Source: Fervidobacterium changbaicum | GTDB taxonomy: Bacteria; Thermotogota; Thermotogae; Thermotogales; Fervidobacteriaceae | Assembly (NCBI RefSeq): GCF_004117075.1 | Contig: NZ_CP026721.1 | Location: 744,001-808,000, forward strand | Length of the DNA stretch: 64,000 nucleotides | Direction of reading: 5' to 3' | Made by a program: the position numbers and the translations under genes | In this document: piece by piece, positions 46,275 through 50,367 of the stretch | Position numbering within the stretch: the stretch's first letter is position 1 | Layout of the letters: every line of letters starts with the position of its first letter | Notes under the pieces: generated by a model | Database searches by the model: none | The model's input: the letters and a program-made list of their open reading frames with translations, nothing else | Told to the model about the DNA's origin: nothing

Positions 46275-46337
46275 TACAACTTAATTAGTGCTCCACAATC
46301 AACACAAAATTAACGTACTTTTATCTCTTTCGTTTAC

Positions 46338-46366
46338 TTGACACTCAAAAACGACTGTGCTATAAT
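46338..46366 (+). promoter_or_regulatory. consensus promoter of the Pro-Gly-Arg-His-Arg tRNA cluster
   Basis: TTGACA at 46338-46343, 17-base spacer, TATAAT at 46361-46366: a perfect sigma-70 type promoter. The first tRNA starts 20 bases after it. Confidence 0.92.
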
Positions 46367-46385
46367 AACTTTCGGTCTTTCGTGT

Positions 46386-46462
46386 CGGGGCGTAGCGCAG
46401 TTGGCTAGCGCGCCGGTCTTGGGAACCGGAGGACGCTGGTTCAAGTCCAGTCGCCCCGACCA
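46386..46462 (+). tRNA. tRNA-Pro (anticodon TGG)
   Basis: Acceptor CGGGGCG/CGCCCCG, anticodon stem CCGGT/ACCGG with loop CTTGGGA, encoded CCA. Confidence 0.96.
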
Positions 46463-46467
46463 GCGAT

Positions 46468-46544
<77 letters not shown>

Positions 46545-46579
46545 AACCTTTTGGTAAGCTTTGCACCAAAAGTTGGTTT

Positions 46580-46656
46580 GCGGCCGTAGCTCAACAGGAT
46601 AGAGCATCGGACTTCTAATCCGAGGGTTGTGGGTTCGAGTCCCGCCGGCCGCGCCA
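46580..46656 (+). tRNA. tRNA-Arg (anticodon TCT)
   Basis: Acceptor GCGGCCG/CGGCCGC, anticodon stem TCGGA/TCCGA with loop CTTCTAA, encoded CCA. Confidence 0.96.
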
Positions 46657-46685
46657 AAAGAATAACTCAATAGAAAACTATCTGT

Positions 46686-46762
46686 GGTGGCTATAGCTCA
46701 GCTGGCAGAGCGCCTGACTGTGGATCAGGTGGTCGAGGGTTCAAATCCCTCTAGCCACCCCA
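46686..46762 (+). tRNA. tRNA-His (anticodon GTG)
   Basis: Acceptor GTGGCTA/TAGCCAC with the extra 5' G at 46686 opposite the discriminator C, as expected for tRNA-His. Anticodon stem CCTGA/TCAGG with loop CTGTGGA, encoded CCA. Confidence 0.96.
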
Positions 46763-46791
46763 GTTTTTTATATAACATAATCATCAGGGAC

Positions 46792-46868
46792 GCGCTCGTA
46801 GCTCAACTGGATAGAGCGTCGGACTTCGGATCCGATGGTTGCGGGTTCAAGTCCTGCCGGGCGCGCCA
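46792..46868 (+). tRNA. tRNA-Arg (anticodon TCG)
   Basis: Acceptor GCGCTCG/CGGGCGC (one G-U pair), anticodon stem TCGGA/TCCGA with loop CTTCGGA, encoded CCA. Last tRNA of the cluster; about 120 bases of featureless DNA follow. Confidence 0.95.
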
Positions 46869-46986
46869 GATTTTGAAAAACAATAGCGTTCTATTTGCAA
46901 ACACGGTCGAGAAGTACGGTTGCCATTCTCCAGTGCTTAAAACAAACTACTGAACTATCAGGCGCCAGAAAAGGGGAGGTAGAACT

Positions 46987-47314: not shown

Positions 47315-48430
47315 CTATTTCAGAGATAAGGATGATACCTTGCTAAAGAATTTCATGCCATCGCTTTTGACAACCAGAATAACTACATCCTTCGTTGCGT
47401 TCCCGTCTTTGCCGATGCTGATTAAACCAGTAACTCCGTCAAAGTTCGTTATCTGCCTTACAGCAAGCGCTATCTTTTCAGGATCCGTGGACTTGGCATT
47501 TTCAATAGCTTTCAGCAAAATCATGTAAGCATCATATCCAAGTGCAGAAAGTGTTGATGGTTTTTCACCGTACTTTTTTTCATACAAATTCACAAACTTC
47601 TTTGCCGTACTTGTCTTTGCTGCGTCTGGATGGTAGTGGTCAGAAAAGTACAGCCCCTCAACTGCGCTTCCTCCTATCTTAATTAAGTCTGGAGCATTTG
47701 CCCCGTCCCCAGCAAGAATGGCTCCTTTGAATCCCAAAGACCTTGCCTGCTGTGCAACTAAGGCAATTTCATTGTAATAACCGGCAATCAGGATTGCTTG
47801 GCTACCAAAAGCTATCGCTTGGGAAATCTGTGCGCTAAACTCCTGGTCACCTGTCTTATACTGAACCTGTAGTACTTTACCGCCGTATTTTTTGAACCGC
47901 TCAATAAAATAATTCGACAATCCGACACTGTAGTCTTGTTCGATATCTGTAAAGACAGCTATTTTATCCAGCTTCAGATTCCTTGCAGCAAATTCCGCCA
48001 GTGCTGTTCCCTGAACGGGATCTATGAAACATACCCTTGAAACGAACCGTTTTCCCTGCGTAACGAGTGGGTTTGTGGATGCAGGGCATAGAAGTGGAAC
48101 CTTCCTGCTCTCAGCTATCTCTGCTGCAGCCATAGAATTTCCACTCATTATCTCTCCTATCACGGCTACAACTTTATCTTTGTCTATCAATCTCGACATT
48201 GCGTTTGCCGCCTCTGTCTTCTCACTTCTGGTATCTGCATAGACAAGTTGGATTGGATCACCAAGAACCGTACGTTTTTCCTCGTGGGCAAGTTCTATAC
48301 CCTTTCTCACCAAATCACCTGCAGCTGCAAGTGGACCTGTTAGCGGCAGTAAAACTCCTACCTTCACAACTGCAAAAATATTCAGACATATTAACAAGAA
48401 AGGTACTACAATCGATTTTTTAGCAACCAT
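47315..48430 (-). CDS. branched-chain amino-acid type ABC substrate-binding protein
   Basis: A 371-residue family 4 (LivJ-type) solute-binding protein. Signal peptide at about 1-21 (KSIVVPFLLICLNIFAV). The mature protein begins KVGVLLPLTGPLAAAGDLVR, and SRKVPLLCPASTNPLVT plus DYSVGLSNYFIERFKKYGGK are characteristic. AGGAGG precedes the ATG. No permease or ATPase genes accompany it in the window; those may lie elsewhere. Ligand probably a branched-chain amino acid or amide, not certain. Confidence 0.88.
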   Translation of the reverse strand: MVAKKSIVVPFLLICLNIFAVVKVGVLLPLTGPLAAAGDLVRKGIELAHEEKRTVLGDPIQLVYADTRSEKTEAANAMSRLIDKDKVVAVIGEIMSGNSMAAAEIAESRKVPLLCPASTNPLVTQGKRFVSRVCFIDPVQGTALAEFAARNLKLDKIAVFTDIEQDYSVGLSNYFIERFKKYGGKVLQVQYKTGDQEFSAQISQAIAFGSQAILIAGYYNEIALVAQQARSLGFKGAILAGDGANAPDLIKIGGSAVEGLYFSDHYHPDAAKTSTAKKFVNLYEKKYGEKPSTLSALGYDAYMILLKAIENAKSTDPEKIALAVRQITNFDGVTGLISIGKDGNATKDVVILVVKSDGMKFFSKVSSLSLK

Positions 48431-48460: not shown

Positions 48461-49717
48461 CTATGCGTTAATATAAGCACTCAAGTCAAAATATCCATGA
48501 CCAGAAAGTGTAAAAACAATCGTCTTTTTCTCGTTTTTCTTAGCTTCCTTAATCACATACGCAACCGCGTGCGCCGATTCGGGTGCTGGGACGATCCCTT
48601 CAACTCTTGCAAAGAGTTTCCCCGCTTGGAATACCTCATCTTGACTCACGGCAACTGCCGAAATGAGTTTTTCGTGAAGTAGTTTGGAAACGATAGGTGC
48701 TGCTCCGTGGTATCTTAATCCACCTGCATGGATTGCCGGAGGGACGAAATCTTTGCCGAGCGTGTACATCTTCATCATCGGTGTCAGACCTGCTGTATCC
48801 CCAAAATCGTACCGATATTCGCCCTTTGTTAGAGATGGGCAACTCTCTGGTTCAACCGCAATGATTTTTATGTCTTTTCCGTTAAGAACATCTGGGATAA
48901 ATGGAAGTATTGTACCACCAAAGTTCGAGCCTCCCCCATGGCAGGCAACGACCATATCGGGTATGATTTTCAATTTTTTAAGCTGCTCTTTCAATTCAAG
49001 ACCAATCACCGTTTGGTGTAACAACACGTGATTTAAGACGCTGCCCAATGCGTATTTTGCATCATTTTGCTTAAGTACAGTCTCTATCGCTTCAGAGATG
49101 GCTATTCCAAGTGTTCCGGGATGTTCACCATCAAACTTTTGGCCAAATCGCGTCAGACTACTTGGACTAGGGACGACATTCCCATCGAAAATGTTCATTA
49201 GCAACTTTCTGAAAGGTTTCTGGTAGAAGCTGACTTTAACCATAAAGATACGAACTTCTAAACCGAACTTCGCACCAGCGTACGAAAGAGCGCTCCCCCA
49301 CTGCCCCGCTCCTGTCTCAGTAACCAGCGTCTTTGTCCCACTAATTTTGTTGTAGTACGCCTGCGCAAGTGCCGTGTTTGTTTTATGACTACCGGTTGGG
49401 CTTACTCCTTCGTATTTGTAGTAAATTCGCGTTTGAGTTCCGAGGTATTCTTCCAAAAACCGTGCTCGAACAAGCGGTGTCGGTCTGTAGACGGCGTATT
49501 CTCTCAGAACAGGTTCTGGAATGGGGATGAACCTTTCGTCACTCATTTCTTGCTCAAGCAATGGCTCAGGAAATATCGCAAGCAGCTTTTCAGGTTTCAT
49601 CGGCTCACCCGTTGCAGGATCAAGTGGCGGATCAAGTTTGAACGGCAAATCTGCAAGCACGTTGTAGTAACTTTTAGGCATCTCCTCAGGTTTTAAATAC
49701 ACAACTTCTCTAAACAT
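48461..49717 (-). CDS. trpB2: tryptophan synthase beta chain-like protein TrpB2
   Basis: A 418-residue PLP enzyme of the TrpB2 group, which makes tryptophan from indole and serine and may salvage free indole. The PLP lysine is in [21 protein letters not shown] (quoted within [14 protein letters not shown]), the phosphate-binding glycine loop is [13 protein letters not shown], and [16 protein letters not shown] is the TrpB2 version of the catalytic segment. GGAGGGGG precedes the ATG. It stands alone, away from trpA and the trp operon. The 280 bases upstream contain a Trp-codon leader and attenuator, direct evidence that the cell treats it as a tryptophan-pathway gene. Confidence 0.93.
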
Positions 49718-49758: not shown

Positions 49759-49796
49759 AAAAAAAGCCGGGTACGATGTCTTAATTCGTACCCGGC
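49759..49796 (-). terminator. attenuator terminator upstream of trpB2
   Basis: GCCGGGTACGA and TCGTACCCGGC form a perfect 11-bp stem with a 9-base loop, followed by seven T residues on the minus strand. It lies 42 bases before the trpB2 start and just after the leader ORF. The first five bases of its 5' arm also belong to the competing antiterminator pairing. Confidence 0.9.
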
Positions 49797-49827
49797 GATT
49801 GTCCACATGATTTCGTTTTGTCGTTGC

Positions 49828-49947
49828 CTACAGTTTGCTACGGCAACAACAAGCTGGCGGACAACCACCGGTTGTCCACCACCACCAGAAATTCTTGGAA
49901 AATATTGGTTTTTGATTAACCGTTAGGTTCGAAGTGTTCTTTCCCAT
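49828..49947 (-). CDS. trpL: trp leader peptide with four consecutive Trp codons
   Basis: A 39-residue ORF: MGKNTSNLTVNQKPIFSKNF, then WWWW (residues 21-24), then a short TTGGCPPACCC-type tail ending RSKL and TAG. The chosen ATG follows AAGGCGGG with a 7-base gap; in-frame ATGs at 49953 and 49968 are possible. Its only expected role is to sense charged tRNA-Trp; the peptide itself probably has no function. The Cys-rich tail may simply result from the RNA having to form hairpins. Too short for most gene finders. Confidence 0.82.
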   Translation of the reverse strand: MGKNTSNLTVNQKPIFSKNFWWWWTTGGCPPACCCRSKL

Positions 49948-50004
49948 AATCATCCCGCCTTGAAGCATTATGAACTGATTTGCGCTGATTTGTTCGTTTT
50001 ACGT

Positions 50005-50034
50005 ATTTTATCACAAGGCTCTGAAAAAAGTCAA
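50005..50034 (-). promoter_or_regulatory. promoter of the trpL-trpB2 transcript
   Basis: On the minus strand TTGACT (50034-50029), 18-base spacer, TAAAAT (50010-50005) with a TGA extension just before the -10. Predicted start near 49998 gives a leader of about 280 bases before trpB2. Confidence 0.7.
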
Positions 50035-50067: not shown

Positions 50068-50367
50068 TCACGATTGTGCTTTGCATTTCTCAATCAATTC
50101 ATTCATGTATTTATCCATCATCTCTTCAACCTTTTCTTTCATACCAGGCATTCCAAGGAAGGAAGAGTCAACCGTTATTATGATTCTGTCATTCTGAATT
50201 TCTATAGTGCCTTTCCCAAATATACTCACCTTCGCCTCGAAGATGTTCTCGCTAACTCTTGTTATCTTCACATTGAACTTGGAGATGTACGGCTCAACTT
50301 CTTTCATAGCAATTTCGTAAAGTCTTTCTGGATCGCAAGAATGAACGTACTCTCTTCTAATCGTCAT
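50068..50367 (-). CDS. hypothetical small protein, possibly polyhydroxyalkanoate-system-like
   Basis: A 99-residue soluble protein. N-terminal helix (RREYVHSCDPERLYEIAMKE), then beta strands (VKITRVSENIFEAKVSIFGK, GTIEIQNDRIIITVDSSFLG) and a final helix (VEEMMDKYMNELIEKCKA). The layout recalls the small PHA-system family, but I am not sure. It lies 17 bases after the radical SAM gene and ends shortly before the trpL promoter. Confidence 0.55.
   Translation of the reverse strand: MTIRREYVHSCDPERLYEIAMKEVEPYISKFNVKITRVSENIFEAKVSIFGKGTIEIQNDRIIITVDSSFLGMPGMKEKVEEMMDKYMNELIEKCKAQS

Follow-up and report, generated by a model that had tools for sequence, protein, structure and literature searches.

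Orphan TrpB2 proteins have a debated role, either as serine deaminases or in indole rescue. The gene for one such protein lies in the stretch of the Fervidobacterium changbaicum genome analysed here (64,000 nucleotides, called the window). The DNA upstream of it raises two questions: what controls this gene, and which of the two roles would such control fit? The original prediction, made from the letters of the window, was a tryptophan attenuator. Ribosome-mediated trp attenuation is a textbook mechanism. Judging from the sequence and its comparison with relatives, we consider it very likely that trpB2 is under ribosome-mediated transcription attenuation by charged tRNA-Trp.

The leader region and the gene it precedes

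The candidate regulated gene, trpB2 (48461..49717, minus strand), encodes a TrpB-like PLP enzyme of 418 aa that is recognised by TIGR01415 and NF009057. Its product scores 648.5 bits on the TrpB2 family profile TIGR01415, above the cut-off of 518.85, and 174 bits on the TrpB1 profile TIGR00263, below the cut-off of 392. The gene for a LivJ-type periplasmic amino-acid binding protein (47315..48430, minus strand; PF13458, 221.5 bits) begins 30 bp downstream and is probably cotranscribed with trpB2. Of the loci checked, those with a LivJ-type gene next to trpB2 are confined to three genomes, all of this genus (G000, G004 and G007). On the side away from trpB2 the leader region is bordered by a small gene at 50068-50367. 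Elsewhere in the window, at 46334-46953, there are overlapping translations (GVAQLASAPVLGTGGRWFKSSRPD and similar) typical of a tRNA gene cluster.

A promoter, a 39-codon ORF with the motif WWWW, a hairpin at the Trp codons and a terminator followed by seven Ts had been predicted, and all are found on the minus strand where they had been placed. The putative sigma-70-like promoter (50005..50034) is a consensus match, TTGACT-18 nt-TAAAAT, with 10/12 positions agreeing and a TG before the second hexamer. The leader peptide ORF (49828..49947) has 39 codons followed by TAG and encodes MGKNTSNLTVNQKPIFSKNFWWWWTTGGCPPACCCRSKL. The ribosome-binding-like sequence AAGGCGG stands 7 nt 5' of its ATG, and longer in-frame starts occur at 49953 and 49968 (41 and 46 aa). 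The four tandem TGG codons, the presumed regulatory codons, occupy 49876..49887.

Folding and alignment place hairpin 1:2, the proposed protector of segment 2, at arms 49880..49870 and 49866..49856 (11 bp), so that it starts within the last two Trp codons. Duplex folding and covariation define segment 2, the 5' arm of the antiterminator (CCGGTGGTTGTCC, 49859..49871), and segment 3, its 3' arm (GGACAATCGCCGG, 49792..49804). Segment 3 occupies the basal nucleotides of the 5' arm of the intrinsic terminator hairpin 3:4 (GCCGGGTACGA ... TCGTACCCGGC, 49766..49796, -20.1 kcal/mol), which is followed by the run of seven T (U) at 49759..49765. The consensus terminator scan did not call the hairpin at 49796..49766 because its loop is 9 nt and the limit of the scan is 8. 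Between segments 2 and 3, folding gives an extra hairpin (49818..49852) that was not part of the original prediction. It contains the leader stop codon, and consecutive Cys codons (CCC) lie in its 5' arm. Hairpins of this kind are present, with differing sequences, in leaders of this genus and one sister genus and are absent from other genera.

The predicted alternative pairing of 13 bp between CCGGTGGTTGTCC and GGACAATCGCCGG, which would exclude hairpin 1 and the terminator base, also stood up to analysis. Duplex folding extends it to 15 bp at -28.9 kcal/mol, compared with -16.9 +- 3.0 kcal/mol for dinucleotide shuffles, and 0/200 shuffles were as good. This antiterminator of 13-15 bp overlaps the 5' base of the terminator by about 5-6 nt and is incompatible with both the first hairpin and the terminator base. 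The leader region as a whole folds with z = -5.4, which none of 200 shuffles matched.

Conservation and covariation in Thermotogota

The original prediction proposed that relatives be searched for the leader ORF and covarying pairings, and both were found. The search for trpB2 covered 61 genomes, at levels that range from genus to class, of which 49 have a clear TrpB2. Upstream DNA was readable for 47 of these 49 genes. In 39 of the 47, that of the window included, a short ORF 5' of trpB2 or its operon has a Trp run in frame. Nearly all conserved leaders have WWW or WWWW, and one has WYWW. The peptides have little beyond this run in common, as illustrated by WWWWTTGGCPP, WWWNSGNCPPP, WWWYCPDSVG, WWWHSPPI, WWWYDRYSGRT and WWWRLPVSDG. 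In the g3 and g5 genera (L012, L013, L014, L016, L018 and L021) most leader peptides have one more conserved Trp codon, placed immediately before the stop (PPPLSW* or PPPLLW*).

At least seven groups of Thermotogota at the rank of family retain the Trp run together with hairpin 1:2, antiterminator 2:3 and terminator 3:4. The antiterminator occurs in nearly every group examined, with an overlap of about 4-11 nt between segment 3 and the base of the terminator, and in most leaders its pairing is well beyond that of shuffles. Automated searches returned no terminator in L019, L070 and L076 and no significant antiterminator in L016, L069 and L080; in L016, L019 and L070 inspection by eye does show the missing element, and the limits of the search are at fault. 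Two exceptions within the genus concern the order of genes. The LivJ-type gene lies between the leader and trpB2 in G007, which suggests co-control and perhaps a function in taking up tryptophan or a compound related to it. G008 has an intact leader that is separated from trpB2 by an IS110-like transposase gene (L065 4050-5583; G008:C1:1930050-1931582), which presumably uncouples trpB2 from its attenuator. In both the leader is displaced, not lost.

The arm sequences of the antiterminator vary between families, and arms taken from different families misfit: own pairs give -28.4 +- 5.0 kcal/mol and cross-family pairs -15.5 +- 5.0 kcal/mol. Pairs were counted on two alignments, one of the window's group and one of a second group, with slid arms as controls. 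The combined 1:2 and 3:4 structure is paired in 90.4% of cells, compared with 33-46% for slid arms, and two-sided changes affect 9/22 of its pairs. The hairpin 1:2 helix is 87% paired over 14 sequences, and both sides have changed in 7/11 pairs of terminator 3:4. Helix 2:3 is paired in 94.0% of cells in the window's group (18-46% slid) and 88.6% in the second group (29-58% slid), with two-sided changes in 4/13 and 6/13 pairs, respectively. Compensatory changes thus accompany the pairing on which the predicted switch depends. Segment 2 is common to 1:2 and 2:3, so selection appears to act on each of the two alternative structures.

Two covariance models were searched over 103 Thermotogota genomes. 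The sole match in the window's own genome is the trpB2 leader. Strong matches elsewhere lie 5' of trpB2 in seven families (f1, f2, f3, f5, f8, f9 and f11), and two loci of one genus precede a trp operon instead. Weak matches (E ~1e-5 to 1e-2) that have neither a Trp run nor trpB2 were treated as terminator look-alikes. The pattern TGGTGGTGG has 41 matches across the genome and the reversed pattern 33, no clear excess; the window's TGGTGGTGG run is the only leader-like one among the 30 of these 41 matches that were inspected. The strongest argument against chance is that the arrangement as a whole has been kept throughout the phylum. With the elements, their conservation and their covariation combined, the proposal of a complete ribosome-mediated attenuation logic is upheld, and the regulation itself is what these features predict.

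Other devices could place a Trp-run ORF before a trp gene. In one, free tryptophan would stall the ribosome on the nascent peptide, as in TnaC, and trpB2 would be induced by an excess of tryptophan. Polyproline slows ribosomes, and the leader does have Trp followed by Pro-Pro; CPP or CPPP after the Trp run is kept in the window's family. In hairpin 1:2, however, the Pro codons form the strand complementary to the TGG repeats, and other families lack the motif (WWWYCPDSVG, WWWHSPPI, WWWYDRYSGRT). It thus tracks the pairing of the RNA instead of a signal in the peptide. Spacing of the TnaC kind is not conserved, and induction of a tryptophan-making enzyme by excess tryptophan would make little sense. 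We regard this device as very improbable. TRAP and T-box devices control trp genes in Firmicutes, and a protein- or tRNA-binding leader would make the Trp-run ORF incidental. An Rfam search of the region (E <= 1) matched no family, T-box, Trp_leader and riboswitches included, and at the gathering threshold the leaders of 12 related loci had no match; the matches elsewhere in those loci were to a purine riboswitch, tRNA and Flavo-1 RNA. Moreover, the Trp codons are in frame in all families, although they are hardly paired in some (e.g. L071 and L083), which leaves such a leader a slight chance indeed. That the peptide is a functional small protein, with hairpins that merely separate it from trpB2, would agree with the constant presence of an ORF of similar length. 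But apart from the Trp run and the residues that pairing dictates, neither sequence nor length is conserved, and the helices covary; we give this explanation almost no weight. Attenuation by charged tRNA-Trp is the reading pursued below.

Tryptophan supply and the function of TrpB2

PALP proteins number four in the genome. Two are cysteine-synthase-like copies, a third is a larger protein, and the fourth is TrpB2. A second TrpB is lacking. The TrpA profile gave only a 19-bit match in the genome, below its cut-off, and searches for IGP synthase (TrpC) and TrpF found none; the TrpA, TrpC and TrpF searches give matches in 14/14 control genomes. With TrpA, TrpC, TrpF and any other TrpB missing, indole that is not made by the usual route is the only source from which TrpB2 can supply tryptophan. 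Tryptophanase was considered as an internal source of indole and set aside, as the PF01212 matches were weak (best 38.7 bits) and none was clear. The tryptophan-making or indole-salvage role that had been proposed is strengthened by this gene content.

Across the phylum the leader is associated with the absence of trpA. The trpB2 genes that lack a leader are those of eight genomes, from genus g7 and one neighbour, and all eight have trpA, whereas trpA is absent from 33 of the 39 genomes with a leader (Fisher p = 1e-5, a value that overstates the evidence since the genomes are related). TrpB2 of T. maritima is reported to make tryptophan from indole with a KM below 1 uM, and a Bacteroides homologue rescues a trpA mutant via indole cross-feeding (PMC11535334). 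An attenuator set by tryptophan starvation, as predicted here, argues for a role of TrpB2 in indole-to-tryptophan salvage.

It could be objected that TrpB2 is mainly a serine deaminase and that the attenuator reflects an indirect link to tryptophan. The deaminase idea has been published, and the paper that discusses it also describes the serine deaminase activity of TrpB2 as poor (PMC1854888), which counts against it. Regulation by tryptophan supply would fit tryptophan synthesis, and the leader is found in genomes without trpA, while every genome in which it is missing has trpA. The deaminase explanation is accordingly unlikely. A starvation-type switch that is phylum-wide, in members mostly without the indole-making pathway, would provide independent regulatory evidence for indole salvage.

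The original prediction also held that the leader belongs to trpB2 and not to a trp operon. This is so in the present genome, where the operon genes searched for are missing, and it does not extend to relatives, whose trp operons also have Trp-run leaders. Short ORFs with WW or WWW stand just 5' of trp operons at L169 4083 (-), L170 1252 (-), L171 3367 (-), L173 3376 (-) and L167 5583 (+). The trp operons with such ORFs in several other Thermotogota are probably attenuated too, and attenuation would thus serve to control tryptophan genes of the phylum more widely and would not be confined to trpB2. No Trp-run leader ORF was seen before the Thermotoga trp operon.

Outside the phylum, a Trp-run ORF and a terminator occur 5' of trpB2 in Calditrichota, Ignavibacteria and Bacteroidota (L093, L095, L096, L097, L100 and L130). 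Among these leaders the alternative pairing is supported only in L093, L096, L097 and L130.

On balance we favour a view in which the trpB2 attenuator is the ancestral tryptophan control of Thermotogota, which has survived where there is no longer a trp operon and has been lost in the genus Thermotoga, which still has one. It would mark orphan TrpB2 as a dedicated indole-salvage enzyme induced by starvation, and since Calditrichota, Ignavibacteria and Bacteroidota show the same arrangement, indole salvage may be a widespread role of TrpB2.

The predicted switch and known attenuators

We infer the following course of events. Transcription would start at the putative promoter and the leader would be translated as it is made. 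When tryptophan is ample, the ribosome would pass the four Trp codons and leave the leader, hairpin 1:2 would form, segment 3 would be free for the terminator, and transcription would stop 5' of trpB2. When tryptophan is scarce, the ribosome would wait at the first Trp codons and cover segment 1. Segment 2 would then pair with the emerging segment 3, the base of the terminator would be blocked, and polymerase would enter trpB2; readthrough probably extends into the downstream binding-protein gene. TrpB2 would join indole, presumably from outside the cell, to serine or phosphoserine and so salvage indole where the rest of the pathway is missing. At a high temperature this would require transcription and translation to be coupled closely enough, which makes a complete ribosome-mediated attenuation system in a deep-branching thermophilic phylum of wider interest.

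Folding calculations bear on the order of these events. In equilibrium folding with a ribosome masking the first Trp codon, mean antiterminator pairing rises from 0.26 to 0.63 and terminator pairing falls from 0.97 to 0.79. Under the same mask the window's leader goes from 0.29 to 0.68 and from 1.00 to 0.97, respectively. With the ribosome at the first Trp codon and the RNA extended to segment 3 only, at 65 C, pairing of the window's segment 3 rises from 0.55 to 0.99. These changes have the expected direction, but the terminator persists at equilibrium. Since segment 3 shifts at a stage when segment 4 does not yet exist, the switch must depend on the order of folding. Were the ribosome at the last Trp codon instead, part of segment 2 would lie beneath it.

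In the open-access literature no attenuator before trpB2 in Thermotogae was found; a published survey of attenuators across genomes (Lopatovskaya et al., cited in PMC4833913) may already list Thermotogae cases. The target trpB2, the phylum-wide conservation and the absence from Rfam appear to be unreported in the open-access literature searched, and the trpB2 leader constitutes an RNA family that Rfam lacks.

The nearest functional counterpart is trpL of E. coli and Salmonella (Rfam Trp_leader). Both have a leader peptide with tandem Trp, hairpins 1:2, 2:3 and 3:4, an intrinsic terminator and an expected induction by low charged tRNA-Trp. Unlike trpL, the trpB2 leader has no Rfam sequence match and would control a lone trpB2 instead of trpEDCBA, its four adjacent Trp codons lie inside or next to hairpin 1:2, and in this genus an extra stop-codon hairpin separates segments 2 and 3. 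In E. coli the terminating ribosome masks segment 2. In the window's genus ribosome release, and not such masking, should let 1:2 re-form because the leader stop is about 25 nt past segment 2, inside the extra hairpin. The predicted trp attenuators of Actinobacteria also combine a Trp-run leader, alternative pairing and a terminator, but belong to a different phylum and differ in sequence. They occur 5' of other genes as well, including trpB1EDGC and trpB2A in C. diphtheriae and trpS in Streptomyces (PMC1262725); 'trpB2' in C. diphtheriae is a label for a second trpB that shares its operon with trpA and may not belong to the TrpB2 family. The his, phe, ilv, leu and thr leader-peptide attenuators share the same logic, with codons for the end product in the leader, and differ in the amino acid and in the genes that they control.
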